In this document: in pieces, positions 236-14,483 of the stretch
Layout: each line of letters starts with the position of its first letter
Position numbering within the stretch: the first letter of the stretch is position 1
Assembly: GCA_015478675.1 (NCBI GenBank)
Contig: JADMIH010000085.1
Coordinates: 1-16,129, forward strand
DNA from: Chloroflexota bacterium
GTDB taxonomy: Bacteria; Chloroflexota; Chloroflexia; QHBQ01; JADMIH01
Length of the DNA: 16,129 bases
Direction: 5' to 3'
Position numbers and translations under genes: made by a program
Notes under the pieces: generated by a model
Seen by the model: the letters and a program-made list of their open reading frames with translations, nothing else
Told to the model about the DNA's origin: nothing
Databases searched by the model: none

Positions 236-898
236 CTAGACAATCTGACTATGGTCTACAAAAACATTGACTTCGGGACCATAATTCTTGATATACCAGG
301 CAAAGACCTCTGGATCAGCGGCCTCGAACATTACCTTCTCCAGCCCCAACGCGCCAATAATTTTGGCCGCCGCGTCCGTGCGCCACGTTTTCACATTTTC
401 GGTGATGCCCTCGGACTCAATCATGATCATATAGGCTCCGGCGTCCAGAAATTTCCTGGCCTGCCCAATGGCCCAATCCACATCCCTCGTACCTTCTGAC
501 GCAAGCTCCTCGGCGGTAGTGGCCCCTCCCGCGCCGAACTGGATACCAACTTCTGGCTTAGCCTTGAGTCCCGCATGCTGCACCTTCTCCACCAATCGCA
601 GCCAGTCATCGACCGGGATAGTGATAAAGCCGCTTGAGATTTCGAGTATATCGAAGCCCACATTGCGGCACTCCTCAATATAGCGATGCACAACCTCGGG
701 TCCCAGCGTAAGCACATGCTCGATGAAGCCTCCAGTGGAGACCAGCACATTGTAGCGATGGGCAAGATCGATGATTTCTTTGAGCTGCTTCTCCGGCATC
801 AGTGTGAAGGAACCGCCCGCGAATTTCAGCGAATCTACATATTCGCCCATTGTTTCCAGTACATCCTCCAGGTATCGCTTGCCCATAGGAGTGTAGTA
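236..898 (-). pseudogene. 3' part of ComA/HSA32-like (phosphosulfolactate synthase family) gene, split by the transposon
   Basis: This fragment codes for residues 30-249 of a ComA-family TIM-barrel protein. Visible family-like blocks are a YVDSLKFAGGSF strand, FDILEISSGFITIP, AKPEVGIQFG with a probable metal or phosphate-site Glu, IMIESEGITE, and FEAADPEVF. Characterised ComA enzymes add sulfite to phosphoenolpyruvate to make phosphosulfolactate for coenzyme M. The plant homologue HSA32 has another role, so the substrate here is uncertain. The missing 29 N-terminal codons lie at 14484-14570. Joining the two parts with one TAGTA copy gives an in-frame 750-bp gene, a normal length for the family. 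The open frame continues into the transposon as far as an ATG at 988, giving a 250-residue chimeric ORF that may or may not be translated. The gene is the second of an operon after the PrpD-like gene at 14603. Confidence 0.88.
894..898. repeat. left 5-bp target site duplication (TAGTA)
   Basis: TAGTA lies immediately before the GGGG tip of the left inverted repeat and is repeated exactly after the right tip at 14479-14483. Five bases is the usual duplication length for Tn3-family transposons. One copy belongs to the Tyr-Tyr codons of the interrupted gene. Confidence 0.95.
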
Positions 899-956
899 GG
901 GGTGATATGCGCGAAGCTGACATGAAGTGCAAAGTAGCCGCCTGGTCGCTTCCAAC
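899..956 (+). repeat. left terminal inverted repeat (IRL, 58 bp)
   Basis: It begins GGGGTGATATGCGCGAAGCT. The first 44 bases are identical to the reverse complement of 14435-14478, and only two mismatches occur over 58 bases. The GGGG tip is typical of Tn3-family ends. At 58 bp it is longer than the common 38 bp; Tn5401 has similarly long ends. Confidence 0.95.
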
Positions 957-1022
957 CAAGCCAAAGACAGATACCACTGAAGTCCCATCCCCCTTGCGTT
1001 TTTCTGCTTTTGCTGGTAGACT

Positions 1023-1070
1023 GACTCGTAGCAGAAAACTCGCAGCAGAAGACGTCTTCTGCTGCGAGTT
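1023..1070 (+). other. left recombinase core site with accessory box (resolution-type site)
   Basis: Three 14-bp boxes lie head to tail: GACTCGTAGCAGAA (1023-1036), AACTCGCAGCAGAA (1037-1050) and, inverted, TTCTGCTGCGAGTT (1057-1070). Boxes two and three form a perfect palindrome around a 6-bp spacer GACGTC (1051-1056). Inverted arms around a short spacer are the expected layout of a tyrosine recombinase core. Box one is an adjacent direct repeat like the DR elements of the Tn4430 internal resolution site. The TnpI-like gene starts 126 bp downstream. Binding by that protein is inferred from position and layout. Confidence 0.8.
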
Positions 1071-1133
1071 GGCGACGGATGCTCCTCTCCGAGGCAATCG
1101 ATTCATGCTCAGATGAGGAGGAAAGCGTTCCGC

Positions 1134-1199
1134 ATGCCCACAAATGAGGATGCACAACTCGTAGCAGAAATTTTTGCAGGGGGAAATGACGAAAAATGA
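1134..1199 (+). CDS. candidate 21-residue leader ORF overlapping the recombinase start
   Basis: An ATG at 1134 follows a strong purine-rich ribosome site GAGGAGG (1115-1121), although the 12-base gap is slightly long. The frame encodes 21 residues starting MPTNEDAQLV. Its TGA (1197-1199) overlaps the recombinase ATG (1196-1198) as ATGA, an arrangement typical of translational coupling. The ORF runs through the extra recombinase-type box at 1156-1169. It may be a coupling leader peptide or chance; a frame this short gives no family evidence. Confidence 0.35.
   Translation: MPTNEDAQLVAEIFAGGNDEK
1156..1169 (+). other. fourth recombinase-type box, upstream of tnpI
   Basis: AACTCGTAGCAGAA matches box one of the left core array (1023-1036) at 13 of 14 positions and lies in the same orientation. 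It sits 26 bp before the recombinase ATG. It could be an accessory DR for directional resolution, an autorepression site, or both. No counterpart was seen at the right end. Confidence 0.65.
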
Positions 1200-2149
1200 C
1201 GGAGCCGTCAAACATCGTTCCCTTTTCGAACACAGGAAGTGAAGACTGGATTCTGAGCTATCAGCAGAGCTGTCTCACGAAGCACGACGAAGCGACTATT
1301 GATGCCTATCTGCGCATCTTGCGCCAGTTCACCTCGTGGGTTGCCAGGCGGCCCGGACATGCCAAACACTTTCAGCCTGACCAGCTCACCGCTACCGTGG
1401 TGGAAGGCTATCTCTCCTTGCTCAAGGAACACGGGTATAGTGTGAGCCATCGCACGCGGGTCAAGTCGGTGATCAAACACTTCTGCCAATGGCTCATCGA
1501 GGAGAAAGAAGCACTCAAGCGCAATCCGACCAGCGGCATCGAAATCAAAGCCCAGCAGACGCTCACGCCTCGTATTCTTTCACCAGATCAGCGCTTTGTG
1601 TTGCGCAACCTGGTCGAGAAAGCTGACGATGTTCGCGGCAAGGCCCTGTTTGCGTTGGGCTATTGGGCAGGCTGTCGTGTGAGTGATGTCGCACACCTGC
1701 TCATGGAGCATACCCATGTGGGTCCCAAGATCGGCTGGCTCCATGTGGGACACAAGGGAGAAAAGTTCCGCGACATCGATCTGCTCAATGAAGCACGCCG
1801 TCCTCTCTATGACTACCTCCAGCACGGTGGTCGTGATCCAGAGAGCATCTACGTCTTCACTTCTCAGAGAAGTCCGCGTCTGTCGGAAGATGGCATTCAT
1901 CATTGGTTTCGCACCCTCAAGCGGCAGGCCAACCATGAGGAATGGGAACTCATCGCTGATCTCTCCTTCCATGATCTGCGGCACGATTTTGCGCATCGAG
2001 CGAGGGAGGCGGGATGGACACTGGAAGAAGTGGCCTACTATCTGGGGCATGTCACGATGAAAGGTACTCCAGCGATTCAGACCACTGTTCGCTACACTCA
2101 GGTGAGCCGAGCACAGGTCAAAGAAAAGTTGAGGCTCTTGAAGGGATAG
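1196..2149 (+). CDS. tnpI: TnpI-like tyrosine site-specific recombinase (cointegrate resolvase)
   Basis: This 317-residue integrase-family protein is expected to resolve the cointegrates made by TnpA replicative transposition. Residues about 15-110 form a SAM-like core-binding domain (DAYLRILRQFTSWVA, GYLSLLKEHGYSVSHRTRVK). The C-terminal domain carries the full catalytic set: Arg161 in AGCRVSDVA, Lys187 in the beta-hairpin HKGEKFRD, His259/Arg262 in HDLRH, His285 in LGHV, and nucleophile Tyr300 in RYTQV. The ATG at 1196 follows AGGGGGA (1178-1184). A palindromic core site and accessory boxes lie directly upstream, as expected for self-regulated resolution. A chromosomal XerC/D is unlikely because the gene lies within transposon ends next to this site. 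It faces inward from the left end, while tnpA is about 9 kb away at the right. Confidence 0.92.
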   Translation: MTEPSNIVPFSNTGSEDWILSYQQSCLTKHDEATIDAYLRILRQFTSWVARRPGHAKHFQPDQLTATVVEGYLSLLKEHGYSVSHRTRVKSVIKHFCQWLIEEKEALKRNPTSGIEIKAQQTLTPRILSPDQRFVLRNLVEKADDVRGKALFALGYWAGCRVSDVAHLLMEHTHVGPKIGWLHVGHKGEKFRDIDLLNEARRPLYDYLQHGGRDPESIYVFTSQRSPRLSEDGIHHWFRTLKRQANHEEWELIADLSFHDLRHDFAHRAREAGWTLEEVAYYLGHVTMKGTPAIQTTVRYTQVSRAQVKEKLRLLKG

Positions 2150-2323
2150 GGAAGACGACACAGCCAAGGCAAGGGACGAGAGGCTTCTTGTGGTTTGTCG
2201 AGTTAATTCTTGCACTTCGACGCTAACTATTCGCCGCTTCTCAGTTCCCACTGAGGCGCTCTGAAGTAGCGCTCTGCACGCGGCGAGATTGACGCGACCA
2301 TGCAAGCTTCCTGTTGTCAGCTT

Positions 2324-3175
2324 TCAGCCGTCTGTTGCCGCCCCAGGCTCGAGCTGGCCATACCAGACCTGCGTTTCATAGTCAATCGTCGCGCTGCCAT
2401 TGACCTGGTGCATCTGGAAGATGACCTCGAGGCTCTCCAGCATCTCGGCGTAGCGTGGGTGGTCAACCCGGGGAGCACTTCCAGCAGAGAAGACGCGGCC
2501 TTTCAGCCCCTCGAAATCGTAGATCTGAGGGTTCTCAAAGGTCTGCAGAGCGAATCTATCGGATCCAAAGAAAGAGGCGATGAGTTCTTGCAAGATCAGC
2601 CCTGGATCTAGTCTCCAGCGATAGACTGGATTCGTTTCTTGCAGGAGGGAGGTGAGATCCTGACCTGTCGCTACCGCCTGCAACCCTTCGCGGGTCAAGT
2701 ACGTCTGCCAAAACTGCTCCAAGGCGACCAGGAACGGTGTCCCTGCGGTTTTTTGCCGGTTCCAGACCAGCACAACCCATCCCCCAGGGGCCAGGATGCG
2801 CGCGAACTCCTTTCTGGCGCGCTCGTGGTCAAACCAATGAAAGGCCTGGCCTGCGGTGACAAAATCAACGCTATGCTCAGCCAGCGAGGTCGCCTCGCTA
2901 CTTCCAGCAAGGCTCGTGAAAGTGGGATACTGCCGTAATACATATTCGGCGGCGATGCGCATCTCTGGATCAGGTTCAATCCCCAGTACCCGGTTGCCGT
3001 TGTTGAGAAACAGTGCAGTCAACATCCCGGTCCCTGAGCCAATATCCGCAACGAGGGCGTGCTGGGTCAGATGACATTCTTTCCGCAGGAGGTCGATGAT
3101 GGCCGCTGGATAGCCTGGACGGTACTTGATGTAGTTCTCGACTCTGCTGCTGAATCGAGGGAGAGCGTTTTCCAT
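2324..3175 (-). CDS. class I SAM-dependent methyltransferase (cargo, first of three by position)
   Basis: This is a 283-residue cytosolic Rossmann-fold methyltransferase. Motif I VADIGSGTG is at 42-50, an acidic ribose-binding residue lies in GIEPDP (65-70), GQAFHWF at 109-115 is the motif IV region, and LAPGGWV is at 128-134. The N-terminal FSSRVENYIKYRPGYP lead is typical of a widespread Methyltransf_11/25 group acting on small molecules. The substrate cannot be read from the sequence. The ATG at 3175 is preceded by AAGGAG (3183-3188). It is the last gene of the - strand cargo run and follows the next methyltransferase after a 188-bp gap, enough space for its own promoter. It shares the HxW-containing motif IV region with that neighbour, so the two may be distant paralogues. 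Confidence 0.88.
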   Translation of the reverse strand: MENALPRFSSRVENYIKYRPGYPAAIIDLLRKECHLTQHALVADIGSGTGMLTALFLNNGNRVLGIEPDPEMRIAAEYVLRQYPTFTSLAGSSEATSLAEHSVDFVTAGQAFHWFDHERARKEFARILAPGGWVVLVWNRQKTAGTPFLVALEQFWQTYLTREGLQAVATGQDLTSLLQETNPVYRWRLDPGLILQELIASFFGSDRFALQTFENPQIYDFEGLKGRVFSAGSAPRVDHPRYAEMLESLEVIFQMHQVNGSATIDYETQVWYGQLEPGAATDG

Positions 3176-3363
3176 CGTCTTTCTCTCCTTCTGGAAAGCT
3201 GTGCTGTATTGCGCCTGGAGATTGCTCGTGGTGAGAATAACACCGGCAGGCCATGTAGTGTGTTTTGCGCTTGTTATTTTCTCTGCTTTTCCAATGATAC
3301 CATGTCTGATGCAAGTACCTAACTCATTCCATATGCAGGGCTAAGACCCCGTTTCGGGAGAGT

Positions 3364-4167
3364 TCACTCGACTTGCTCAGGGTTCACTCCTGTTGCTGGC
3401 CTCCCCCAGATCACCAACCCCATCACGTGCAAGGGGAGGATGCCATCTGGATGATGGTGCAACAGCAGGCTGTGCATTTGCTGGTCAAAGCCAGCGGCTG
3501 ATTGCGGGTCAAGGTATTCCTGCGAGAAATGACTATGCAGGCACTCGATGAAGTCCTCAACCGATTGGAAGAAAGGGACAGAGGTCGTTGCTCTCTCTCC
3601 CTGCTTGTGGAAAAAGCCGCGTGCCTCTAACTCTTGAGCTACGTGAGCCGGGCTGTGGCCTCCCCGCGGCAGAAAGCGGACGCGCAGTTCTCTCATATCG
3701 GCATCCCAGGGCATGGGCAGCGTCTTGCGATAGACGAGAGCGAGAGAGCCAGCAGGGGTCAGGATGCGGCGAAAGAGCGGGAAGGATTTCTCCCACTCCA
3801 GCCAATGAATGCTTGACCCTGCCGTGATCAAGGCATAGGGTGGAGCAAGTTGCACCTCCTCGACCTTCCCATAGATCCACTGTAACCGGGGCGAGTCTCC
3901 GCCTGGAAGCTGCCTGCCTCGCTCAATCATGGGCGATGAGAAATCGACGGCATCCACCCGCCTGGCGAGAGTGACCAGGGGTCGGGCAAGATCGCCGGAG
4001 CCAGACCCGACATCGAGTACGGTCCGCGGCTCATCCGTCAGCAGCGTGGTGAGGATCTCAAACACCTCCTGTGGATATGGGGGACGGTGTCGGTAGGCCT
4101 CGACCACCCGCCGGTCTTTGAACGTGTCAGCGAAGAAGGTGCGAGGGTTCTCTGGTTGCGGGTGCAT
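3364..4167 (-). CDS. class I SAM-dependent methyltransferase (cargo, second of three by position)
   Basis: This 267-residue protein has motif I VLDVGSGSG at 50-58, acidic Asp75 in VDAVD, the motif IV region ITAGSSIHWLEW at about 114-125, and LTPAGSLALV just beyond. The N-terminus (FKDRRVVEAYRHRPPYP) resembles that of the neighbour at 2324-3175, which suggests a common small-molecule methyltransferase group. The C-terminal half may form the substrate cap and gives no recognisable specificity signature. The ATG at 4167 follows AAAGGA (4174-4179). The start lies 40 bp after the 37-residue membrane ORF at 4208-4321, so the two are probably cotranscribed. Confidence 0.88.
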   Translation of the reverse strand: MHPQPENPRTFFADTFKDRRVVEAYRHRPPYPQEVFEILTTLLTDEPRTVLDVGSGSGDLARPLVTLARRVDAVDFSSPMIERGRQLPGGDSPRLQWIYGKVEEVQLAPPYALITAGSSIHWLEWEKSFPLFRRILTPAGSLALVYRKTLPMPWDADMRELRVRFLPRGGHSPAHVAQELEARGFFHKQGERATTSVPFFQSVEDFIECLHSHFSQEYLDPQSAAGFDQQMHSLLLHHHPDGILPLHVMGLVIWGRPATGVNPEQVE

Positions 4168-4207
4168 GGGTGTTCCTTTACTCCGTTTTCTACGGTCATG
4201 GGTGATA

Positions 4208-4321
4208 TCAAGAGGTCGTCACCTCTTCCCTATATTCTTGTCGGGTGCGCGTCACCGCCGCGATCACCCCCACAATGGCTGTGATGATCAATTGGAGGAT
4301 TGGAATACCATAATCGAACAC
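4208..4321 (-). CDS. 37-residue single-helix membrane protein (hypothetical)
   Basis: I chose a GTG start at 4321 because AAGGAGGG (4331-4338) lies 9 bases upstream; an in-frame ATG farther out at 4420 lacks such a site. The protein has one hydrophobic helix (YGIPILQLIITAIVGVIAAV, residues 4-23) and a charged tail (RTRQEYREEV), so it is predicted to insert in the membrane with the basic tail in the cytoplasm. No family is recognised. It ends 40 bp before the methyltransferase at 4167. It may be real or an expressed short ORF; proteomics or conservation would decide. Confidence 0.5.
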   Translation of the reverse strand: MFDYGIPILQLIITAIVGVIAAVTRTRQEYREEVTTS

Positions 4322-4393
4322 TCCTGTCTTCCCTCCTTCGCAATTCTTGCTGAACGACTCCCATGAAAGGCGAGATACGACTCGTTCTTGCCT

Positions 4394-4615
4394 CTTCTCC
4401 TCTCTTTGAGCACTGGGCAAGCATACTCGGTCTCACAAGCGACTGGCTCTCTTTTTTCTCCTCGTCAGCAACCAAGTGAGGCGAGAGGTGATACTCAGGA
4501 GCATGACTCCCCCAAGAACAAGGAAACCGAATTCAGGGCTGATCCAAAACGCCACACCCACGATCATGCCCATCATCCCAAAAACAACTCTTTTTTCGAT
4601 TGGAACAGTCGTCAT
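4394..4615 (-). repeat. diverged direct repeat, copy A (small membrane gene plus 3' flank)
   Basis: This stretch aligns along its length with 6738-6957. It includes the two-helix gene and about 40 bp beyond its stop codon, where CTTCTCCTCTCTTTGA is identical in both copies. The extension beyond the coding region points to duplication of a DNA segment rather than convergence of two proteins. Confidence 0.8.
4433..4615 (-). CDS. two-helix small membrane protein, copy A (hypothetical)
   Basis: This 60-residue protein starts at the ATG at 4615. A GTG four codons upstream is possible, and neither start has a strong ribosome site; the ATG aligns with the start of the paralogue at 6957. It has two hydrophobic segments (VVFGMMGMIVGVAFWI and FGFLVLGGVMLLSI) separated by SPE, then a basic tail LTRRKKRASRL consistent with a cytoplasmic C-terminus. 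It is clearly paralogous to 6772-6957 (shared MGMIVGVAFWISPE and LTRRKK). No known function is recognised. It lies between the SnoaL-like gene and the 37-residue membrane ORF in the same direction. Confidence 0.7.
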   Translation of the reverse strand: MTTVPIEKRVVFGMMGMIVGVAFWISPEFGFLVLGGVMLLSITSRLTWLLTRRKKRASRL

Positions 4616-4699
4616 TTTTCTGCTCACTTTTCTCGCGATTGGAGGACTATTATTCTGCCAGTCTAGATGTTCCTCATTCTTGCGAGGCGTTTCACCAGC

Positions 4700-5140
4700 T
4701 CACGAGCGGGTTTGTCCTGGGGGCGGGACCACCCCAAGCTGGTTCACCAGGCCTAGCATGTCTACGACCCCCCAATCTTCCGCAAACTTGCCATCGACCA
4801 GGCGACTGATGAGAATGCCTGTCACCATTACCTGCCTGCCCGTTGGCGGAATGTTCCAGAGCGGTCCCTTCTGGGTGCCTCGCCATGTATAGCGCGTCGC
4901 AACCTTCTCTCCTTCGGTGATGATCTCCTCAATCGAGATCGAAATGTCGGGGAAGGCGGTACGAACCATGGTGACGAATTGTTTGACGCTCTCGGGACCC
5001 CTCTGCTGCGCCGACGGGTCGGCAGGATTGTGGATGATGTAGTTCGGGGCAAAAAACTGGTCGGCGGCACCGACGTTTCCCTGCGCCCACACCTCCTCAA
5101 ACATGCGGCGGACAAGAGCCTTGTTGTCTTCTAGTGCCAT
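4700..5140 (-). CDS. SnoaL-like / ester cyclase family protein
   Basis: This 146-residue NTF2-fold protein begins at the ATG at 5140, preceded by AAGGAGT (5148-5154); the open frame upstream has no comparable site. Family-like blocks are FEEVWAQGN (14-22), GPESVKQFV (48-56), RTAFPDI (60-66), EGEKVATRYTWRGTQKG (76-92), IPPTGR (97-102) and EDWGVVDMLGLVNQLG (121-136). SnoaL itself closes a polyketide ring by aldol condensation, but most bacterial relatives with this layout have unknown substrates. It follows the Yip1-like gene by 115 bp and sits among methyltransferases, so a shared small-molecule substrate is plausible but not shown. Confidence 0.85.
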   Translation of the reverse strand: MALEDNKALVRRMFEEVWAQGNVGAADQFFAPNYIIHNPADPSAQQRGPESVKQFVTMVRTAFPDISISIEEIITEGEKVATRYTWRGTQKGPLWNIPPTGRQVMVTGILISRLVDGKFAEDWGVVDMLGLVNQLGVVPPPGQTRS

Positions 5141-5255
5141 GGGATGTACTCCTTGTGTTTCTTTTGCTCGATTTACTCGCAGTACGTTGCCTACAGGTTG
5201 CCGGGTGCAGTCCACGTCAGGGGCCTTCCTCCTCCATGGCCTCTCCGACAACGAC

Positions 5256-5996
5256 TCACCGTGTTCCTCTCTCCTCCTTCTTGCGCGTATCTCCACCCCA
5301 CGGAAAGAAATCGGACACGCCAGCAAGAATTTCCCCCTCGGTCAGGAAGAAGAGAGCTACTAGCATCACGACGACGAGGATCAGCATCGGGAGAATGAGG
5401 ACGATGAGCGTGGCCCGGCCCGCACCCAGACGATGGACCGCCATAATGGTGCAGGCATGCAGGACCATCCGGTAGATGAACAAGGCGCCCACCAGGCCTC
5501 CGAGCATCACCACGAGCCAGCCCGTAGCAGGGATCAACAACACGAGACCACTGAGGGTGACCAGGGGGACCGTACAGAGGAGTAAGCAGTACAGGTGCGC
5601 CACAAATGTTCCGTGCCCGCCAGAGCCCTTGCTAAACAGGTAGGCGGTCCCCAGTCCGATGAAGAAGCTCGCCAGCACAAAGGCGATGCCGTTCCAAGGG
5701 GCAGGCAGCAACCCCAGCGGGTGGACAGACCCGATGCCAAGCCGGGCGACGCTATGCAGCGCAGCCGTGGGGATCAGATGCCCGAGCACACTCAGGGTGA
5801 CCGTGATGCTGAGCAGTCCCAGCACTTGGACGAGGGCGATCCCCCAACTCGCTTTAGCAAGCTCTTCGCTCAAGGTGGCGGCCGAGGGGTTGCTGAGGAC
5901 TTTGACGTATTGGACAGGCAGCTGCCAGATGGCCTCCCCCAATGGGAGGGGCCCAGCCACTGCCGGATCATCCTTCGTAAACACCGTCTGGCGCAT
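5256..5996 (-). CDS. Yip1-domain-like integral membrane protein
   Basis: This 246-residue protein has about five hydrophobic helices at roughly 51-75, 100-121, 131-155, 159-177 and 197-218. A soluble N-terminal segment contains PLGEAIWQLPVQYVKVLSNPS, and the C-terminal tail is charged (DTRKKEERGTR). The N-terminal phrase plus five clustered helices is the usual layout of bacterial Yip1-family proteins, whose function is largely unknown. The ATG at 5996 follows AAAGGA (6005-6010). It starts 41 bp after the three-helix protein gene at 6038-6313, suggesting coexpression of the two membrane proteins. The family call rests on topology and partial motif resemblance. Confidence 0.68.
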   Translation of the reverse strand: MRQTVFTKDDPAVAGPLPLGEAIWQLPVQYVKVLSNPSAATLSEELAKASWGIALVQVLGLLSITVTLSVLGHLIPTAALHSVARLGIGSVHPLGLLPAPWNGIAFVLASFFIGLGTAYLFSKGSGGHGTFVAHLYCLLLCTVPLVTLSGLVLLIPATGWLVVMLGGLVGALFIYRMVLHACTIMAVHRLGAGRATLIVLILPMLILVVVMLVALFFLTEGEILAGVSDFFPWGGDTRKKEERGTR

Positions 5997-6037
5997 GCGT
6001 GTGGTCCTTTCTCAACAGGCAAGAGCTGTTGCGTCAA

Positions 6038-6313
6038 TCAGTGCTCATTTCCTTGAGCGGCTGGAGACCGCCGCTGCATAGCGTGGGTGATGCTGGTGCC
6101 TCCTCCGATAATTGCTATTGTTCCAGCTACCCACCATTGGGCATCGAGAAGGACTCCGAAGTAACCGAGGATGGTCAGGCTCAGCAGGGCAGCCCCAATC
6201 AAGGTATCCCATCTCTTCGTCCTCATTCCCTTCCGACGGTAGATGAACGCGGCCACTGCATAAAGCAGGGCAGCAATGACAAGGTAAATGATCAGACCAG
6301 GGTGCAGATTCAT
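6038..6313 (-). CDS. 91-residue three-helix membrane protein (hypothetical)
   Basis: The start is ATG 6313, because GGAGGA (6320-6325) lies 6 bases upstream; the longer frame to 6340 has no matching site. Hydrophobic segments lie at about 7-25 (LIIYLVIAALLYAVAAFIY), 36-56 and 60-76. A basic cytoplasmic loop RRKGMRTKRW separates the first two. No family is recognised. It directly precedes the Yip1-like gene. A 228-bp stretch upstream (6314-6541) holds no gene I can support. Confidence 0.7.
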   Translation of the reverse strand: MNLHPGLIIYLVIAALLYAVAAFIYRRKGMRTKRWDTLIGAALLSLTILGYFGVLLDAQWWVAGTIAIIGGGTSITHAMQRRSPAAQGNEH

Positions 6314-6541
6314 GACATTTCCTCCAGAGGTGATCATCACCCCTGTGCTACTCTCAAAAACACTCCAGACTCAGACCAGGTGGACTGCTCCCGCCCTCTG
6401 GGCAGCGGTGGCCCTTGAGGTGCTCTCATGCTCCGGCTTGCGGGAGAGCAGCGGTGTCGCATCTGCCAGGTGGTGAGCGAACTATGCTCCTTCTGACACC
6501 TCACGGAGTTATCCTTCTGCGCAAGCTTGTACGCCCGCACA

Positions 6542-6640
6542 CTAGAACGGAAGAAAATCAGTCCAATCCAGGCCGGTCTCATCAAGAAACAGACAAGCCA
6601 GCACGAAAACAATCAAGCAAATCAGTAGTATCCATCCCAT
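6542..6640 (-). CDS. 32-residue single-helix membrane microprotein (candidate)
   Basis: An ATG at 6640 with AAAGGA (6650-6655) nine bases upstream opens a 33-codon frame including the stop. The product starts MGWILLICLIVFVLACLFLD, one strongly hydrophobic helix of about 18 residues, and ends with an acidic-aromatic tail (DETGLDWTDFLPF). Net charge is negative, so it does not look like a typical basic type I toxin. It lies between the two-helix copy B and the three-helix protein in the same direction. Its length gives no family assignment; the ribosome site and the uninterrupted helix are the only evidence. Confidence 0.5.
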   Translation of the reverse strand: MGWILLICLIVFVLACLFLDETGLDWTDFLPF

Positions 6641-6737
6641 AAAACATATTCCTTTCATATATCATCAACCGTAGTTCTGCCATATGATAGAATGAACATC
6701 TGGCTGTACTCCACAGCACTGGACGAAGATTGAGTCA

Positions 6738-6957
6738 CTTCTCCTCTCTTTGATCACTGGGAAAGTATGTTCTACCTCAAAAGCGTCTTGTTCTCTTTTT
6801 TTCTCCTTGTCAGCAACCAGGAGAGGCCAGAGATGAGACTCAGGAGCATGACTCCCCCAAGAGCAACGAGACCGAGTTCAGGGCTGATCCAAAACGCTAC
6901 ACCCACTATCATGCCCATTGTGCCAACAGCCACTTTCTTGTCGAATGGAAGAGTCAT
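6738..6957 (-). repeat. diverged direct repeat, copy B (small membrane gene plus 3' flank)
   Basis: This is the partner of 4394-4615, in the same orientation about 2.3 kb away. Identity includes noncoding sequence beyond the stop codon. The two repeats bracket the SnoaL-like, Yip1-like, three-helix and 32-residue genes, so recombination between them could delete that block. Confidence 0.8.
6772..6957 (-). CDS. two-helix small membrane protein, copy B (hypothetical)
   Basis: This 61-residue paralogue of 4433-4615 shares MGMIVGVAFWISPE, LGGVMLLS and the basic tail LTRRKK. It has two hydrophobic helices with a short SPE turn, and by the positive-inside rule both ends are likely cytoplasmic. The ATG at 6957 has only a weak purine stretch upstream (GTGAGG). 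It starts 15 bp after the short OsmC-like gene at 6973-7218, so it is probably in the same transcript. Confidence 0.7.
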   Translation of the reverse strand: MTLPFDKKVAVGTMGMIVGVAFWISPELGLVALGGVMLLSLISGLSWLLTRRKKENKTLLR

Positions 6958-6972
6958 GCCTAGTTAGCCTCA

Positions 6973-7218
6973 CTACTTCTCTACGGGTATGGCTTGAGCA
7001 TCCCGAAGTCGCACCGGTGTCCCCCGCCTCAATGAGTTCGGAATCTCCGCTATACAATCGGTAGAGGTAATCAAGTCAAGCATCTCTGCTCCATTGAAGC
7101 CCAATCCCATGCCTCCCGCCTGCGTTTCGCGGTCGATCGTAAGCGTGCGATGCCCGGCCCATCCTACGGCGACACTGGCGTTCTGAATGGTTCGGATATG
7201 GATAGCGGTTTGTGCCAC
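6973..7218 (-). CDS. short OsmC-like protein, probably C-terminally truncated
   Basis: The start is a GTG at 7218, chosen because AGGAGG (7226-7231) is 7 bases upstream; the ATG at 7266 lacks this. The 81-residue product resembles the N-terminal half of an OsmC/Ohr-fold protein: a beta strand pair (ASVAVGWAGHRTLTIDRE), then GGMGLGFNGAEMLDL, which corresponds to the family's GG.G..P.ELLL block, followed by a helix where a catalytic Cys is expected (TSTDCIAEI, Cys near 55). OsmC proteins reduce organic peroxides with two cysteines and are about 130-140 residues. The second half with the other Cys is missing, so peroxidase activity is doubtful. It may be a decayed copy or a short family variant. 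Confidence 0.5.
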   Translation of the reverse strand: MAQTAIHIRTIQNASVAVGWAGHRTLTIDRETQAGGMGLGFNGAEMLDLITSTDCIAEIPNSLRRGTPVRLRDAQAIPVEK

Positions 7219-7323
7219 GAGACATCCTCCTCTCCGGCTGAACCTTATACCCTGTTGGAGATTCAATCCAACTCCTCCAGCGACTGCATCATTTCCTGGT
7301 GGGTTGCTTTTTCACGGATGGTC

Positions 7324-8148
7324 TTAGCGCCTGATCGCGATGGCTTCCAGGTACTCAGAAGGCACAGCGAGTGTCCCATCTTTTGCACGATTGTAACTCT
7401 CCAGGAGGCTGATCGCCTCACCCGAAAACTGCTCTTGTCTCGTCGCATCCAGGGTCTTGAGGGTTGTGACTATCGGGCCATAGTACGTTCCAAAATGATC
7501 CAACCAATGCGCGGCGGAGCGATAGCGGAAGATGAAATGCCGTTTCGTCGTCTGGAGCGATGCGATTCCATCACCAAAGAGTTCACGCAGTCGCTCCTCG
7601 GTTCCCCATAACGAAGCCGGTTGTAGTCCGGCAGGCGGGGGCACATATTTGCCGATGAGACGGAAGAGGTTACCAATAAACCCGCCTGGTGTCCAGTTCG
7701 CCAGGCCAATCTTCCCACCGGGGCGACAGACCCGCAGCAGCTCGCTCGCCGCTTTTTCCTGATGAGGCGTAAACATCACGCCGAGAGTTGACAACACGAT
7801 ATCAAAAGAGGCGTCGGCAAAGGGAATATTTTCCGCATCTCCCTCCTGGAAGGTGATGGGCAGGCGCTCGGCTTCAGCTCGTCTCTGCCCAACCTCAAGC
7901 AGTGCCGGGACATAGTCGATACCCGTCACTTCACAAAAGCGGCGAGCGGCTGCAATGGCGGTATTTCCACTTCCCGTTGCCACGTCAAGCACGGATTGAC
8001 CCGCATACGGGTCGGTAGCTTCACAAAGCTCCTCGCTAATGACAACCAGTGTCGCGCCAATGACTGAGTAATCTCCCGTTGACCAACTCTTTTGCTGACG
8101 TGCTTTGATCGCCTTCAAGTCAACGGATGGTGATTGATGGGATACCAT
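7324..8148 (-). CDS. class I SAM-dependent methyltransferase, UbiE/Methyltransf_11 type (cargo, third by position)
   Basis: This 274-residue protein has motif I VLDVATGSG at 53-61, acidic Asp78 in TGIDYV, GDAENIPF (103-110), FDIVLS (115-120) and CRPGGKIGLANWTPGG (141-156). The NW.P.G pattern is common in uncharacterised UbiE-like small-molecule methyltransferases. The ATG at 8148 follows AAGGAGA (8155-8161). It is the first gene of the - strand cargo run and is divergent from the STAND regulator, with a shared 174-bp control region. It is less similar to the other two cargo methyltransferases, which share an HxW-containing motif IV region absent here. The substrate is unknown. Confidence 0.9.
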   Translation of the reverse strand: MVSHQSPSVDLKAIKARQQKSWSTGDYSVIGATLVVISEELCEATDPYAGQSVLDVATGSGNTAIAAARRFCEVTGIDYVPALLEVGQRRAEAERLPITFQEGDAENIPFADASFDIVLSTLGVMFTPHQEKAASELLRVCRPGGKIGLANWTPGGFIGNLFRLIGKYVPPPAGLQPASLWGTEERLRELFGDGIASLQTTKRHFIFRYRSAAHWLDHFGTYYGPIVTTLKTLDATRQEQFSGEAISLLESYNRAKDGTLAVPSEYLEAIAIRR

Positions 8149-8196
8149 GGTTCTTCTCCTTTCGTCTTCCTAAGCATAAGGTACATGAGGGTGAAT

Positions 8197-8220
8197 GTCT
8201 CCATTCTTTCGAGTGGAGAC
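8197..8220. promoter_or_regulatory. inverted repeat in the divergent control region, candidate operator
   Basis: GTCTCCA (8197-8203) and TGGAGAC (8214-8220) are exact inverted 7-mers, with centres about 17 bases apart. They sit between the methyltransferase start at 8148 and the regulator start at 8323. The spacing suits a dimeric DNA-binding protein, possibly the regulator itself. Confidence 0.4.
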
Positions 8221-8322
8221 AAGCATGGAAAAAGCAGTGGACATGTCCTGCAAGATAGCGTAGAATAGTTGTGGTCAAGACATGGCCTTCAGAAGGCTCC
8301 TCATCATGCAGGGAACAAGCTC

Positions 8323-10740
8323 ATGAAAGGAAAAGCGAGGTCACTGGATCTCCTGAACGAACGCGAACAAGAGATTGTGCAGCGGCTGGCAAGCGGATTA
8401 TCCGATCAGCAGATTGCCGACGAACTCTTCTTGAGCTTGCATACCGTGAAGTGGTACAATCGCCAGATTTACAGCAAACTGGGGGTCAGAAGCCGGACGC
8501 AAGCGATCGCGTGCGTGAAAGACCTCGGGGTGCTCGAGAGCAGGGACTCGCCGTCGCCGCAAACAGCCTCCTGGATGGGGGGACTTCCCTATCCGCCCAA
8601 CCCGTTCTTTCTAGGCCGAGAAGAGGTGCTGGCCCGCCTGCGCCGCCAGTTGCAGGCGGCTCAGGCAAAGGCCTTCTCACAGCCACAGGCCATCAGCGGG
8701 CTGGGCGGAGTCGGCAAAACCCAGGTGGCCCTCGAATATGCCTACCGGTACGCCCGGGACTACCAGGCCGTCTTTTGGGTGCGAGCCGACAGCCGCGAGG
8801 CGCTGGTGTCCGGTCTCCAGGCGATCGCACGCGCGCTCTCGCTGCCCGAACGAGATGAACGGGATCAGAGCGCCATCGTGGAGGTGGTCAAGGGCTGGTT
8901 ACGCCAGCACACCGGCTGGCTCTTGATCCTGGATAACGCGGATGACCCGGCCCTTGTGCCGGAGTTCCTGCCGACTCCGCTGCGAGGGCACGTGCTGCTC
9001 ACGACGCGCGCCCAGGCCCTGGGCCGGCTGGCCGCGCGCATCGAGATCGAGCCGCTCGACCTGGACACGGCCCCCCTCCTACTCTTGCGGCGAGCCGGGC
9101 TGCTCGCCCTCGATGCTCCGCTCGCCCAGGCCGAGCCAACCGAGTGGCAGGAGGCGGTGCAGCTCGCCCAGGAACTGGGCGGCCTGCCCCTGGCGCTGGA
9201 CCAGGCAGGGGCCTATCTGGAAGAGACCGGGTGCGGCCTGCCGCAGTACCTGGAGCTGTATCGGCGTCATCGGACGGGCCTGCTGCGGCATCGTGGGGGA
9301 GTGGACCCGGACCATCCCGACCCGGTCGCCACCACCTGGTCGCTCTCCTTTGGCCTGGTAGAGAGCCGCAGTGCCCCCGCGGCCGATCTGCTGCGGCTGT
9401 GCGCCGTGCTGCATCCCGACGCCATTCCCGAGGAGCTCTTCCTGCAGGGAGCAGACCACCTGGGACCCGCGCTCGCCGGCCTGGAGAAGAATCCCCTGGC
9501 CTTCAACCAGGCGCTCTCTGTGATCGGGACCTACTCGTTGCTGCGGCGCAACGGCCGCGAGCACACGCTCTCGATGCACCGCCTGCTGCAGGCGGTGCTG
9601 GCCGATGCGATGAGCGAAGAGGAGCGCGAGCTGTGGAGCGAGCGAGCTATTGCCGCGCTCCAGGCGCTCTTTCCCGATATGATGCAGCACGGCTGGGAAC
9701 AGTGGGAACACTGCGGCCGCCTCTTGCCGCATGTGCTCAGCGTTGCGGCGAGCACCGCCCAAGAGGCGCACAGCCTGGACCTGGCCTCTGTGCTGACCAG
9801 GGCGGCAGACTACTTGAGCCAGCGTGCCCAATACGAGCAGGCCGAGCCGCTCTACCAGCGCGCCCTGTCCATGGCTGAAGAGGCGCTGGGGCATGACCAT
9901 CCCCGGGTGGCCTTCCCCCTTTCTGGGCTGGCCGATCTCTATCGCGAACAGGGCCGGTATGAGCAAGCCGAGCCACTCTACCGAAGAGCGCTGCACCTCT
10001 GGGAGCAGGAGCCTGCGGAAGTGCATCCCGAGCTTGCGGCTCTGCTCAACGACCTGGCCATCCTCTATGCTGAACAAGGCCAGTACCAGCAGGCCGAGCC
10101 GCTCTTGCAGCGGGCCCTGCACCTCGATGAGCAGATGTTCGGCCAGAAACATCGCAAGACCGCCACCCGCCTCAACAATCTGGCCGGTCTCTATCTGGAT
10201 CAAGGCAACCGAAAGCTCGCGGAGCCGCTCTTGCAGCGGGCCCTGCACCTCAGTGAGGAGATGTTGGGGCCGGAACATCCCGAGGTCGCCTTTCCTCTCA
10301 CCAACCTGGCCGACCTCTATCGCGAACAAGGCGACTACCAGCGAGCCGAGCCACTCTACCAGCGCGCGCTGCACCTCTGGGAGCAGGCGTTGGGGAGCTC
10401 CCACCCCCGGGTCGCCTTCCCCCTGGGCGGGCTGGCCGACCTCTACCTCGCACAGGGCCGCTACGGCGAGGCGGAGCCGCTCTACCAGCGCGCGCTCGCC
10501 ATTCGCTACCAGCAGCGAGGGACGCAGCATCTGGAAACGGCTGACAGTCTGCATGGGCTCGCGCGTCTGCACGAACGACGCAACCAGCCGGAGCAGGCCC
10601 TTGAACTCTATCAGCAGGCCCTGCGCATCCGCGAACAGTACCTGGGGCCAGAGCACTCCAAGACCCTGGAAACCCGCGCCTGCTACGCTCATCTCTTGCG
10701 CCTGTGTGGGCGCCTGGAGGAAGCCGCGGCCCTGGGCTAG
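8323..10740 (+). CDS. STAND regulator: N-terminal LuxR-type HTH, NB-ARC ATPase, C-terminal TPR array
   Basis: This 805-residue protein starts at ATG 8323, with a purine stretch AGGGAA just upstream; a TTG at 8269 is less likely. Residues about 8-64 form a LuxR/GerE helix-turn-helix (LNEREQEIVQRLASGLSDQQ...HTVKWYNRQIYSKLGVRSRTQ). Next is an NB-ARC ATPase: Walker A GLGGVGKT (126-133), Walker B LLILDNADD (200-208), LLTTRAQ, and GLPLAL (287-292). MHRLLQAVL closes the winged-helix part. Seven 42-residue kinesin-light-chain-type TPRs (about 494-787) end the protein. STAND proteins are usually held inactive with ADP and oligomerise on ligand binding by the repeat domain. It is divergent from the cargo run, which suggests it controls it. 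LuxR HTHs of LAL regulators are C-terminal, so this order is reversed. It appears more GC-rich than its neighbours. Confidence 0.93.
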   Translation: MKGKARSLDLLNEREQEIVQRLASGLSDQQIADELFLSLHTVKWYNRQIYSKLGVRSRTQAIACVKDLGVLESRDSPSPQTASWMGGLPYPPNPFFLGREEVLARLRRQLQAAQAKAFSQPQAISGLGGVGKTQVALEYAYRYARDYQAVFWVRADSREALVSGLQAIARALSLPERDERDQSAIVEVVKGWLRQHTGWLLILDNADDPALVPEFLPTPLRGHVLLTTRAQALGRLAARIEIEPLDLDTAPLLLLRRAGLLALDAPLAQAEPTEWQEAVQLAQELGGLPLALDQAGAYLEETGCGLPQYLELYRRHRTGLLRHRGGVDPDHPDPVATTWSLSFGLVESRSAPAADLLRLCAVLHPDAIPEELFLQGADHLGPALAGLEKNPLAFNQALSVIGTYSLLRRNGREHTLSMHRLLQAVLADAMSEEERELWSERAIAALQALFPDMMQHGWEQWEHCGRLLPHVLSVAASTAQEAHSLDLASVLTRAADYLSQRAQYEQAEPLYQRALSMAEEALGHDHPRVAFPLSGLADLYREQGRYEQAEPLYRRALHLWEQEPAEVHPELAALLNDLAILYAEQGQYQQAEPLLQRALHLDEQMFGQKHRKTATRLNNLAGLYLDQGNRKLAEPLLQRALHLSEEMLGPEHPEVAFPLTNLADLYREQGDYQRAEPLYQRALHLWEQALGSSHPRVAFPLGGLADLYLAQGRYGEAEPLYQRALAIRYQQRGTQHLETADSLHGLARLHERRNQPEQALELYQQALRIREQYLGPEHSKTLETRACYAHLLRLCGRLEEAAALG
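9802..10683 (+). repeat. seven tandem 126-bp coding repeats (TPR units)
   Basis: Each unit encodes 42 residues patterned LADLYREQGxYxxAEPLYQR then ALHLxEx...G..HP.VA. Units two to five share long near-identical DNA, for example GCCGAGCCGCTCTACCAGCG, so they could expand or contract by slippage or unequal exchange. Confidence 0.9.
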
Positions 10741-10847
10741 CTGGCCACGGCTTTGCGCTGGAAGTTCATATGTCAGGACTTTTCCAGTTCTTGCTGAGAG
10801 GTCTTCCCCGCCCATGAGGCATGAGTCATCCCAGATGCTGAAGCATG

Positions 10848-10923
10848 GCTCAGGTGAAGCGGGTTCATCTTGGCCTATTAGTCCATGAACAGAGGCGAGC
10901 GTGCCTGAAAACACCACCTGAGC
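10848..10923 (+). other. candidate structured RNA or multi-stem inverted repeat
   Basis: The 10741-11029 gap holds nested inverted repeats. GCTCAGGTG (10848-10856) pairs exactly with CACCTGAGC (10915-10923). Inside these, GTTCAT (10863-10868) pairs with ATGAAC (10885-10890), and AGGC/GCCT (about 10893-10906) forms a short third stem. Drawn together they make a three-way junction. It is followed about 100 bases later by a strong ribosome site and ORF at 11030. No known riboswitch class is recognised, and chance is possible. The rest of this gap shows no supportable gene. Confidence 0.3.
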
Positions 10924-11029
10924 GGTAGCCAGCCGGGAAAGTGTGATTGCCTGCCCTCCCCAGCAACAACGTTTCTCAATCCAGAGGTCGGCATTGTTTC
11001 AAGGGAGCCGAACCCAAAGGAGGTATCAG

Positions 11030-11167
11030 ATGAAAGACCGACCTGAATTCGCCTTGGTTCTGGGGAGATTCTTTTGCTCTTCCGAGAGGCGCTTCTTTAT
11101 GCGGACAGTTCTTCCTCAATCCTCATTCGTTCAGAGAGATCCAAGCGGAACAGGCCATACGGGGTGA
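11030..11167 (+). CDS. SD-led short ORF running into the tnpA 3' end, possibly a truncated gene start
   Basis: AAAGGAGGT (11016-11024) is a near-perfect ribosome site 5 bases before ATG 11030. The frame codes 45 residues beginning [18 protein letters not shown]. Its last 71 bases are antisense to the end of tnpA (11097 onward), and the sequence there looks like random out-of-frame translation. The likely reading is that a cargo gene's 5' end was fused to the transposase module and lost its remainder, near 11090. No family is recognised from the first 20 or so residues. Confidence 0.3.
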
Positions 11168-14096
11168 CATGACTATAGATCAGCGGCGTGAGCGCTCGCA
11201 GATCCTCCTTCTTCATCCGCTGGAACTGCTGCGGTTCAGCGAGCACGCGCTGAATCAGCAAGGTATTCACGTAGACCAGGCAAATTTGCAGGAGGTGCAA
11301 GGATAAGGCAGCGACTTCTTGCTCGTCGAGACGATTGGTCGCAAAATCCCCACTGTGCCCGTAAAAGATGAAGCTATTGGCAGAGTTCCAGTTTTCAATC
11401 ACATTGAGGCCTTCGTGAATCTCCCGGCGCAGGGCTTCTGATTGTAAGTAGTGACAGAGGAAAATGGTTTTGATGGCCCGGCCGAGCTCGGCAAAGGCCC
11501 GGTACGTGGGATGTTGCAACTCTGTTTGCGTAAAACGGCGTAAGATCGCCTCCGTCTCAGCAGTTCCGAGTCGCAGGGCGGTGGCGTATTTGATCATCTG
11601 GTCGTACTGCTCTTTAATCAGATCCCAGTCGATGGGACGCGTGAGAATGGGCTGAAGATTGGGATAGGCGTCAGGCTCCCCGCTCACGGGACGGGCGAGC
11701 TTCTGGGCATAGATGTTTTTGAGGCGAGGCATGAGTTGGAAGCCCAACAGATGACAGAATCCGAAGGCCACCTCGTTCTGCCCGTGGGTATCCACAAACT
11801 GCTTTTCGACCTTCATCTGGGTACAATGCCGCAGCACGCCTTTGATCATCGCCGCCACCTCGGAAGACGAACAGGTTTTGAGCTGGGAGTAGATACAGGT
11901 GGCATGCTTTTCGACGTGCCAGTAAATCATCACCCCTTTGCCCCCATACCGTAAGTGCCACTCGGTCATCAAGTTTTGGTCCCAGGCCCCGAACTGCGTG
12001 GAGTCCGAGGCGCAGGTGGTCGTGCCTTCTCCCCAGATGTGGGGCTGGCGCACCTGGAAAATGGCGTTGGCCACATCGATAATCGCAGCCCGCAAATGCT
12101 CCTGGTGGATGTAGCGGCGACGGGTGTAGATCAGCTCGTTGTAGCTTTGCCCATGCTCCCCCTGACTGATGCGCTTGAGTCCCGTATTGGTGCCCATCCC
12201 ATAGAAACATAACAGCAAGCGTTTTTGCAAGACCTCCCGATCAAGTACCTCGCGAGAAGCGGGGCTTTTGAAGTGCTGGGTGAAGCCGATGCGCAGCTCT
12301 GCCTCCTTGAGAATATCCAGCAGCGAGGTCACGCCCCAGCGTTTGCTGATTTCGGCTTTGAGCTTGCGCAGGTGGTGCGGCTCGGGTTGCGCTATGAGCG
12401 GCGTCAGGCTGATCCAGCCGCCCTTTTTGTTGAGGAGGCGCACCTGGGAGGACAGTTTCGGCACGGCCTGGTCAAACGACGTCAGCGCCTCGATCATCTG
12501 TTGGCGCAGGGTGGTGATAAACTCCTCGGCCTTTTCAGGTTGCTCTAACGCCTGGTAGTACTCCGTGCGCTTGTCGTCGAAGTCCTTGGGCAAGTCATCA
12601 TCGGGGTTGCGGTATTTGTTAGCCCCAACGACCCATAACTCACGACAGCGCAGCTTCTCCTGGAGCGCATCGAGCACACAGAGTTCGTAGTTGACACGCT
12701 TAATGCGCTGCTCCCCCTCCTTATCTTTTTCCAGCACCAGGTCGCGCCACATCGGACGGACGACCCCGGCAATGGGGACCGTTTCGTCAACCGGATAATA
12801 GACGCTGGGAGTTCCCGCGTAGCGTTTGACCAGGACAAGCGCGTCTGCGACAGGGCGGTGCGCCGTGTTGTTGGAACGCACATCGAGCATGTTGACTAAA
12901 ATCGGCACCATACGCCGATAATGATCGCGGTAGGAGGCGCGCATGCGCTGGTAGACCTGCTCATGATACTCTCCCTTCGCCTGGTACTCTTTGAGAACGG
13001 CTTTGCATTTCTCCTCGCTCATGACCGGAAAAATGCCTGCCCGAATGGTCTTCTCTGGCCCCGCCAGTGCTGCTTCGGCGACTTGACGGAGCAGCCGCTG
13101 CTTGCCCTCCACGGTTTGGATCTCATCAAGATACTGCTTCTTGACGTGCTTTTCGGCCTTGGCCCCAATGCGGCGGATGACCAGCAGCAGGAGATCGACC
13201 AGGCTATCGGTCACTTCTCCCGTCCGCTGCTGGCAAAAGGCCGCCAGCAGCGTGTAACGTGTCGCATCAGGATGGCGGCGCAGTTCGTAGAGCGTTTCCG
13301 TGGCAGCCCGTTCTCGATAGAGCGTGATCACTTTGGGGGAGACCTTTTCAAAGAGATCGGCAGGAAGAGCTAACTGCAAGAGCACGCGCACCTTGTCGAT
13401 TTCGTGCAGCACGCTTTCCAAACCAACCGCTCCGGGGCTGGTTTTTAAGTCCGGCCAGGTGATGGGAGTCCGCCGCGCCTCCACCGCTGTGAGTGGCGGC
13501 TCATCATCCTGGGCCTGTTCTTCCTCTTCGGCAACGGCGACGCTGCGCGCCAGCAAGTCATCGAGCAGTGTGCAGGTTGACGGAGGAAGACGCTGCATGG
13601 TCTCAGCAAAGAGCTGCTGCTCATAGGTGTGACAGCCGGAGCGAATCAGCCGTTCGAGGCGGTCGGTCGTGGGTGGCTCGATCTTGCGTTCGCGAAAGCG
13701 TGTGGTCACTACCACCTTGAGATGCTCCAGGTTTTGATCACCAGCAAGGATGTGTGTAATGAGCCAACTCGTCATCTCCTCCGTATCGAGGTTGGTGGCC
13801 TCCCGAAACGCGAGATGCTCTCGAATCTGTGTCCGGTGCCCTTTCACCGTGCGTCCCTCCCAGTCATACTGGGCATACAAGGCCGCATCGAGCTTGAGTT
13901 GGTGAGCAACATAGTCCACCACAGATCGGGCAATGTCGTGCTTGGCGGGAGGGAAACGCCCCTCATATTGGAAGCATTTGAGTAAGAGCGCACAGCCAAG
14001 GCGGGTCGGGCCCGTCTTATTGGCAAGGAATTCCAGATCGTCTTCAACCAGGGTAAAGTGTTCAATCAGTTCTTCGATGTCCCATTGGCGTTTCAT
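11097..14096 (-). CDS. tnpA: Tn3-family DDE transposase TnpA
   Basis: This is a 999-residue transposase that binds the 58-bp ends and drives replicative transposition through a cointegrate. The start at 14096 gives [20 protein letters not shown], matching the usual Tn3-family N-terminus; an in-frame ATG six codons upstream (14114) is also possible, and neither has a strong ribosome site. Catalytic residues fall in order: Asp698 in CASDSTQFG, Asp769 in [12 protein letters not shown], and Glu901 in [12 protein letters not shown]. Supporting family blocks are [20 protein letters not shown] near the N-terminus, [12 protein letters not shown] before the first Asp, and [14 protein letters not shown] near the end. 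Length is standard (about 960-1000), so it looks intact. It faces inward from the right end. The 210 bp between its start and the right core site should hold its promoter, but no clear -35/-10 pair was seen. Confidence 0.97.
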
Positions 14097-14306
14097 TGGC
14101 CTTCGTCTCTCCATTTCTTCTAATAAGGAAGGACTGGCAGCAAAGACAGGACTGGCGTCATCTTTTATCTGTCGAGGTGCGCTTTCTCATGTCCTGCTTA
14201 CTCTATCCACAGCAAACGCGAACGAGCATCGAGAAACGGGGAGAAAGGACTTTTATGCTAGTGATTCGTGAAGAAATACCCTGTTATGAAGAGAAGTAGG
14301 GAAGTG

Positions 14307-14354
14307 AACTGGCAGCAGAAAGCACCTTCTGCCGCCAGTTTTCTGCTGCGAGCC
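14307..14354 (-). other. right recombinase-type core array, mirrored copy of the left site
   Basis: Reading inward from the right tip there is box A' (14341-14354), box B' (14327-14340), a 6-bp spacer (14321-14326) and inverted box C' (14307-14320). Arms AACTGGCAGCAGAA and, reversed, AACTGGCGGCAGAA differ at one base. The array begins and ends at exactly the same distance from its transposon tip as the left array (172 bp in total). The spacer reads GGTGCT inward against GACGTC at the left, so productive recombination between the two is doubtful. A role in binding TnpI near the end, as reported for Tn5401, is plausible. Confidence 0.75.
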
Positions 14355-14420
14355 AGTCTACCAGCAAGGTGGGGAAAATGCAAGTGGGAAGCGCTTTAAG
14401 CGATATTTGCTCCTGAACGA

Positions 14421-14478
14421 GTTGGAAGCAACCGGGCGGCTACTTTGCACTTCATGTCAGCTTCGCGCATATCACCCC
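14421..14478 (-). repeat. right terminal inverted repeat (IRR, 58 bp)
   Basis: The reverse complement starts GGGGTGATATGCGCGAAGCT and differs from the left repeat at only two of 58 positions. Beyond 58 bp the two ends diverge for about 40 bp, then become similar again through the recombinase-type boxes. Confidence 0.95.
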
Positions 14479-14483
14479 TAGTA
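14479..14483. repeat. right 5-bp target site duplication (TAGTA)
   Basis: This is an exact match to 894-898. On the - strand the duplication plus the first transposon base creates an in-frame TAG, which stops the interrupted gene after 30 codons. Confidence 0.95.

Follow-up and report, generated by a model that had tools for sequence, protein, structure and literature searches.

A cargo-carrying Tn3-family transposon of a Chloroflexota bacterium with TnpI-type site arrays at both ends

A 13,580-bp, cargo-carrying Tn3-family transposon (positions 899-14478) lies after codon 29 of a ComA-like gene in a soil bacterium of the Chloroflexota, with TAGTA on either side, and its genes for the tyrosine recombinase TnpI and the DDE transposase TnpA are located at opposite ends, each behind an array of candidate TnpI sites. 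We believe that this is probably a TnpI-type Tn3 transposon with a doubled irs array, which would allow TnpI both to resolve cointegrates and to act on tnpI and tnpA; binding, repression and resolution are predictions. The insertion event itself is ordinary; the less ordinary part of the element is the two-ended design of TnpI sites, which was absent from the preliminary description of this DNA. All positions refer to the window, that is, the entire stretch of 16,129 nucleotides that was analysed.

The insertion and the interrupted host gene

The element boundaries are apparent from a direct reading of the letters. The two copies of TAGTA, at 894-898 and 14479-14483, adjoin terminal inverted repeats (TIRs; 899-956, forward strand, and 14421-14478, reverse strand) that agree at 56 of 58 positions, including all of the first 38 (38/38), and that have the GGGG tips of the 38-bp type of Tn3 TIRs, with GGGG starting at 899 and CCCC running up to 14478. 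The duplication can be neither shifted nor extended, because the bases at 893 and 14478 (G and C) do not match, nor do those at 899 and 14484 (G and A), so that the ends at 899 and 14478 are exact; the chance of a five-base match at fixed tips is about 1 in 1,024. The 5-bp target duplication expected of the Tn3 family is thus represented by TAGTA and is confirmed by the empty sites described below. Both the duplication beside the GGGG-type tips and the limits of the element at base resolution had been proposed in the preliminary description, and both hold.

When 236-898 is joined to 14484-14570, the resulting 750 nt on the reverse strand form 249 open codons and a stop, exactly as had been claimed, and AGAGG precedes the ATG of the restored gene. 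The joined frame and the alignment of relatives assign 236-898 to the 3' part of the gene (PF02679, E 6.7e-70) and 14484-14570 to its 5' 29 codons, including the start codon. The earlier name, ComA-like, stands at the level of this Pfam family, whereas the archaeal equivalog for phosphosulfolactate synthase (ComA), TIGR03849, gave 80.6 bits for the fragment ORF against a cut-off of 280, and a phosphosulfolactate synthase activity of the split gene is only putative. Upstream of the ComA-like gene, and colinear with it in relatives, lies an MmgE/PrpD-like gene (14603-16042, reverse strand; PrpD model, E 2.6e-44, below the cut-off).

A search with the fragment 236-895 against 47 genomes of the class reached through genome G002 (E up to 0.001) yielded homologues of the joined gene in 21 genomes, two of them weak. 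We aligned the joined flanks to 20 loci from 20 genomes (L081-L100), leaving out the weak match in G017. In 17 of these loci, the alignment passes through the junction, gap-free over the 55 columns printed around it, and no insertion is present at that point in any of the 17; of the remaining three, L098 and L099 match part of the gene, ending before the junction, and the distant homologue in L100 had no match by BLAST. The best empty site, L082 in genome G045, shows 89% identity over 2,241 aligned positions, from the ComA-like gene into the MmgE/PrpD-like gene. The alignment between these two genes is in one piece in 9 of the 17 loci and in two pieces in 8, and because all 17 loci align across both genes, they constitute a conserved pair. 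An alternative with no insertion involved, in which the arrangement would be an assembly join or a conserved locus of long standing, is extremely improbable: the exact target duplication and the matching TIRs speak against this possibility, and the uninterrupted gene in the relatives rules it out. Thus, the empty site that the preliminary description proposed to look for does exist, and neither of the two observations that it named as damaging to its case, a split arrangement conserved in diverged relatives or a joined gene without homologues, was made.

The earlier suggestion that the insertion is recent is supported by the pattern of substitutions. The comparison of the window fragment with G045 reveals 6 non-synonymous and 52 synonymous changes (dN/dS of 0.026), within the range of 0.024 to 0.045 obtained for four intact-copy controls (reference L083), so that the broken fragment shows no relaxation of selection. 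If all 6 non-synonymous changes were neutral and postdate the insertion, then, by a hand estimate, the insertion would account for about 5% of the period elapsed since divergence from G045; the estimate fails if the ComA-like fragment is still used, for which a fusion ORF starting at 988 leaves room. This ORF of 250 codons (236-988) arises because the left end of the element can be read outward in the frame of the broken gene, and its ATG at 988 follows AAGGGGG.

tnpI, tnpA and family membership

The tnpI gene (1196-2149, forward strand) encodes a tyrosine recombinase of 317 aa (Phage_integrase, E 2.1e-21) in which we recognize stretches that presumably contain the catalytic R, K, H-x-x-R, H and Y; none of the NCBIfam recombinase cut-offs is reached. 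The tnpA gene (11097-14114, reverse strand) encodes a Tn3-family DDE transposase of 1005 aa, for which relatives point to a start 18 nt downstream, with the DDE_Tnp_Tn3 domain (PF01526, E 4.7e-138) spanning residues 600-989 and stretches that we take to carry the catalytic D, D and E; the protein is of the size, about 1000 aa, that is expected of this family. Residues 10-991 of TnpA align to the solved structure of the Tn4430 transposase (7qd8/7qd4) with an E-value of about 2e-68. Full-length relatives of TnpA are 66-93% identical within the class of G002, followed by those from Saccharibacillus, Paenibacillus and others at 57% or less.

In its sequence layout, the element has the features of the TnpI-type (Tn4430-type) transposons, namely, a tyrosine recombinase gene with an adjoining irs that consists of IR1, IR2 and two DRs. 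It departs from this type in gene order: tnpI and tnpA are not colinear but convergent, with tnpI on the forward strand from 1196, tnpA on the reverse strand from 14114, and about 9 kb of cargo in between.

Two TnpI-type arrays

The 13-bp half-site ACTCGCAGCAGAA and its variants with up to two mismatches occur four times at the tnpI end (1024, 1038, 1057 inverted, and 1157), three times at the tnpA end (14341 inverted, 14327 inverted, and 14308), and nowhere else in the window. At both ends, the order from the tip inward is the same, a direct repeat followed by a palindromic core of IR1, a 6-nt spacer and IR2, with IR1 at bp 140. The left array (1024-1069, forward strand) comprises DR at 1024-1036, IR1 at 1038-1050, the spacer GACGTC at 1051-1056 and IR2 at 1057-1069, and the right array (14308-14353, reverse strand) comprises DR at 14341-14353, IR1 at 14327-14339, the spacer GGTGCT and IR2 at 14308-14320. 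The fourth, DR2-like half-site, detected by the half-site scan at 1157-1169 on the forward strand, is found only at the tnpI end.

When the 16-kb window was scanned for the DR-IR1-spacer-IR2 layout, two arrays only, one per end, reached a score of at least 28. In 1,017,697 bp of loci L001-L080, no array with a score of at least 31 was found, and at a score of at least 28, seven loci matched, two of which (L001 and L002) are arrays of the same family in Ktedonobacter racemifer, the other five being repeat-like by eye. As a further reference, 25 other Tn3 elements were picked by judgement from the TIR pairs of L001-L080, with nested palindromes and others left out and with L004, L005 and L078 among them resembling a single 7,866-bp element; their ends score 17-25, none above the shuffled maximum of 26.

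Directly outside the DR, the alignment of element ends reveals inward-reading promoter-like sequences, TTGCGT-17-TAGACT toward tnpI (994-1022, forward strand) and TTGCAT-17-TAGACT toward tnpA (14355-14383, reverse strand); a strict sigma-70 consensus scan found no promoter at either end, so that these assignments rest on the end alignment. The pattern TTGNNT-17-TANANT is present in 8 of 8 tnpI ends and, counting that of the window, in 3 of 7 tnpA ends; of the other four, one departs from it by a single letter, and the three from G021 lack it. A promoter doubled at every end was accordingly rejected: across the group, only the array is constant, and the doubled promoter is no general rule. No Rfam family reached its gathering score in the window.

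Recurrence of the design in Ktedonobacteria

The same design recurs in Ktedonobacteria, in elements with other 5-bp flanks, for which the preliminary description had proposed to look. One element on contig C42 of genome G021 (143648-151900, L148) is 8,253 bp long, is flanked by AAATA as a target duplication and encodes TnpA and TnpI with 93% and 92% identity, respectively, to those of the window; another on the same contig (115777-124931, L147) spans 9,155 bp between ATGGA and ATGAA, which are alike in four of five positions. The third, in K. racemifer DSM 44963 (NZ_ADVG01000001.1; G001:C10:237828-255075), is 17,248 bp long with TTGAT on both sides. Like the element in the window, the K. racemifer element has tnpI (61%) and tnpA (70%) convergent at opposite ends with an array at each, but its tip at the tnpI end is GAGG, and its TIR at the tnpA end is interrupted by an insert (7899-10000 of L001) that carries a gene for a serine recombinase of 569 aa.

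Among 33 TIR-like hits in the fetched loci, we used the 15 that adjoin close copies of tnpA or tnpI, the rest being miniature elements, fragments, distant copies or unplaced; 11 further loci contributed no new TIR-like end. The array is present at all 15 chosen ends with scores of 28-37, compared with a maximum of 24 in 2,000 random sequences, and in 13 of the 15, it is located at bp 139/140, counted from the tip. All 5 of the nearest tnpI ends and 0 of the 5 nearest tnpA ends have the fourth half-site; at the stringency used, it was not seen at the ends from K. racemifer and G027. Three TIR-like ends next to distant or fragmentary tnpA copies (L106, L111 and L140) lack the array, and the loci of several tnpI relatives with 48-58% identity (L122, L123, L174, L180-L184 and L190) yielded none, which indicates that the design is limited to the nearer family members. 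The two K. racemifer arrays have the motif in one and the same diverged form, CTCGTACTAGA, and this change of the two in step argues for one protein reading both.

Several arrangements in the same genomes deserve mention in their own right. In another region of the K. racemifer genome (L160 and L162; G001:C10 445144-481851), a tnpA with a TIR and an array and a tnpI with an array are convergent over 36.7 kb, and no TIR was found beyond tnpI. The neighbouring elements L146 and L147 (G021:C42 105878-124931) share ATGAA as the left flank of one and the right flank of the other, with mismatched inner flanks, as if two elements had recombined, although chance could also account for this pattern. 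Finally, G024, G027 and G029 contain six TIR pairs of the family type, 289-323 bp in size (L151-L155 and L158), which look like miniature relatives and resemble the miniature elements outlined in PMC4133298; in their case, mobility is putative and a mobilising transposase is assumed. Five of the six have an array with a score of at least 27 at one end only.

Origin of the irs

Relatives of TnpI with 57-63% identity are encoded on plasmids of Nostoc, Rubrobacter, Bacillus and Paenibacillus (among the 15 listed of 200 matching records), and these plasmids of other phyla led us to reject the possibility that TnpI is lineage-specific. The tnpI gene of Rubrobacter radiotolerans lies behind one core and one distal half-site, as discerned by eye, and is colinear with a tnpA of only 24% identity; in Nostoc sp. 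ATCC 53789, a four-site array, also by eye, precedes the recombinase, next to a DDE transposase and an ATPase. Both arrays fall below the scan threshold of 28. From these examples, it seems that tnpI moves together with the irs on its side, the recombinase and its own irs appearing to form a portable unit, and that the array at the tnpA end is the added feature. On Nostoc plasmids (L211 and L215), a close TnpI relative (63%) is encoded beside a DDE transposase and an AAA ATPase, a neighbourhood which suggests that the recombinase and its site are common to unrelated transposition systems.

Proposed mechanism and alternatives

In the established Tn3 pathway, TnpA cuts the tips of the element and makes a cointegrate. 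As a member of this family, the transposon in the window is predicted to have entered the ComA-like gene by replicative transposition, in which TnpA would have joined donor and target and the tyrosine recombinase TnpI would have split the cointegrate at the core site. Under the reading that we favour, TnpI would bind both arrays and repress both tnpI and tnpA, resolution would occur at the complete four-site array beside tnpI, and the array at the tnpA end would be used by TnpI mainly as an operator or as a helper of TnpA at that tip. In the window, each gene would then possess a promoter and a TnpI operator of its own. As a pattern, the two-ended TnpI design is well supported; the mechanism is what we infer from it.

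The array at the tnpA end could alternatively be a second working site, at which TnpI inverts the 13-kb interior or swaps tips (the TIR together with the outer segment) between ends or between elements. The outer segments indeed retain no memory of end type, with a mean identity of 53.0% in 49 same-type pairs and 52.6% in 56 cross-type pairs, but an inner identity of more than 55% is reached by same-type pairs only (3 of 49 against 0 of 56), a combination that suggests exchange or conversion between ends. The two G023 ends seem to fit this picture as well, with 99% identity outside the core, background identity inside it and the spacer GATGCT in both. However, these ends are located on two contigs with mismatched flanks, and their IR1 arms differ at 3 of 13 positions even though the outer parts are 99% alike, which gene conversion explains better than a crossover in the spacer. 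Furthermore, the elements in the window, L148 and L147 each have unlike core spacers at their two ends, an expected obstacle to left-right exchange, and some same-type pairs show similar sequence on either side of the core, which is what plain descent predicts (71 and 71% for Kr1_I/G27_I, 60 and 67% for win_A/G21a_A). Taken together, the differing spacers, the core differences in G023 and the agreement of same-type pairs on both sides speak against routine crossing over, and we regard a second working site of this kind as unlikely. End swapping by TnpI was demoted as the main reading on the grounds that the spacers differ and that the G023 cores differ more than the outer parts.

A more mundane and still somewhat unlikely explanation is that TnpI plays no part beyond a single irs and that the ends stay matched through ordinary gene conversion or homologous recombination, for which the long inverted repeats would serve as substrate. 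The TIRs are long, and identity drops at the edge of the core, where homology ends anyway, in accord with this explanation. It nevertheless leaves unaccounted for both the position of the array at 139/140 bp in most of the chosen ends, with the intervening 85 bp at background in many pairs, and the motif change shared by both K. racemifer ends. The boldest version of exchange, which we consider quite doubtful, treats each end as an exchangeable cap composed of the TIR, the outer segment and the TnpI array, with TnpI recombining caps between ends and between co-resident elements, and so homogenising the caps and re-capping cargo; if true, this would be a transposon that maintains its matching ends by site-specific recombination.

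Cargo

The cargo of the element in the window includes, on the reverse strand, two class I methyltransferases (2324-3175, Methyltransf_11, E 1.1e-17, and 3364-4167, Methyltransf_25, E 1e-11), a SnoaL-like cyclase (4700-5326; SnoaL, E 5.2e-37 over residues 71-197) whose true start is probably downstream, a Yip1-domain membrane protein (5256-5996; E 4.7e-07, just above the Pfam cut-off), a small ORF with no family found in profile searches (6038-6340) and a UbiE-like methyltransferase (7324-8148; Methyltransf_25, E 3.2e-23), as well as, on the forward strand, a LuxR-HTH/NB-ARC/TPR regulator (8269-10740; FxSxx_TPR, 424 bits against a cut-off of 300). None of the scanned cargo proteins reached the cut-off of an NCBIfam resistance model, the nearest being the Erm rRNA methylase with 23.2 bits against 212. 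Among 8 cargo proteins scanned with PADLOC, there were partial matches to a mad2 methyltransferase region and to TPR and CARF models, and we claim no defence role. The cargo differs among family members while the ends are constant: in G021, one element carries a sigma-70 factor, a zf-HC2 protein and a kinase-HEAT protein, and the other a lipase-like gene. The interior of the element is a free cargo slot.

The LuxR/NB-ARC/TPR gene (8159-10695) looks chimeric, with a switch near 8575-8584: the segment 8159-8574 is about 79-80% identical to loci in G001, G034 and G035 and 72% identical to one in G033, and the segment 8584-10695 is 73% identical to G003. The stretches 7090-7234 and 8159 onward are 77 bp apart in K. 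racemifer (L166) and about 920 bp apart in the window, where 7235-8158, with the methyltransferase gene 7324-8148, fills the gap. In addition, a block is duplicated at 4394-4610 and 6738-6955, about 2.34 kb apart, with 81-86% identity; it codes for a small, probably membrane, protein.

Comparison with known TnpI-type elements and implications

According to the catalogue outlined in PMC7157771, tnpI is present in only 3 of 190 Tn3 elements, in all of them as tnpI> tnpA>. As summarized there, the irs of Tn4430 lies beside tnpI and consists of IR1, IR2, DR1 and DR2, and in Tn5401, TnpI modulates the expression of both tnpI and tnpA through the irs. With Tn4430, the element in the window shares the DDE Tn3 transposase, the tyrosine recombinase and, going by that summary, an irs of IR1, IR2, DR1 and DR2 next to tnpI; in Tn4430, however, tnpI and tnpA are colinear, there is one irs and there is no known passenger, whereas here the genes converge, a second, three-site array precedes tnpA and about 9 kb of cargo is carried. 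TnpI-type resolution is likewise common to Tn5401 and TnBth4, but those elements have a single half-site near each end, rather than a DR with a palindromic core, and the order tnpI> tnpA> instead of two separated genes. In short, Tn4430 and Tn5401 place colinear tnpI and tnpA behind one irs, and here each gene lies behind its own array at a fixed distance from the TIR. In the portions of the literature on TnpI/Tn3 elements, Ktedonobacter transposases, TIMEs and resolvase shuffling that were covered (including PMC7157771, PMC4133298, PMC9689679 and PMC3236041), we found no description of the two-array design; the primary papers on Tn5401 may hold a fuller precedent.

The verified empty site gives exact element ends that can be used for naming and for transposition tests. 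The ktedonobacterial group, in which tnpI and tnpA occupy opposite ends and each is preceded by a TnpI array, extends the known Tn3 designs. In this natural system, one can ask how a resolvase may in addition control the expression of the transposase and whether it is the difference in spacers that makes two inverted cores tolerable.
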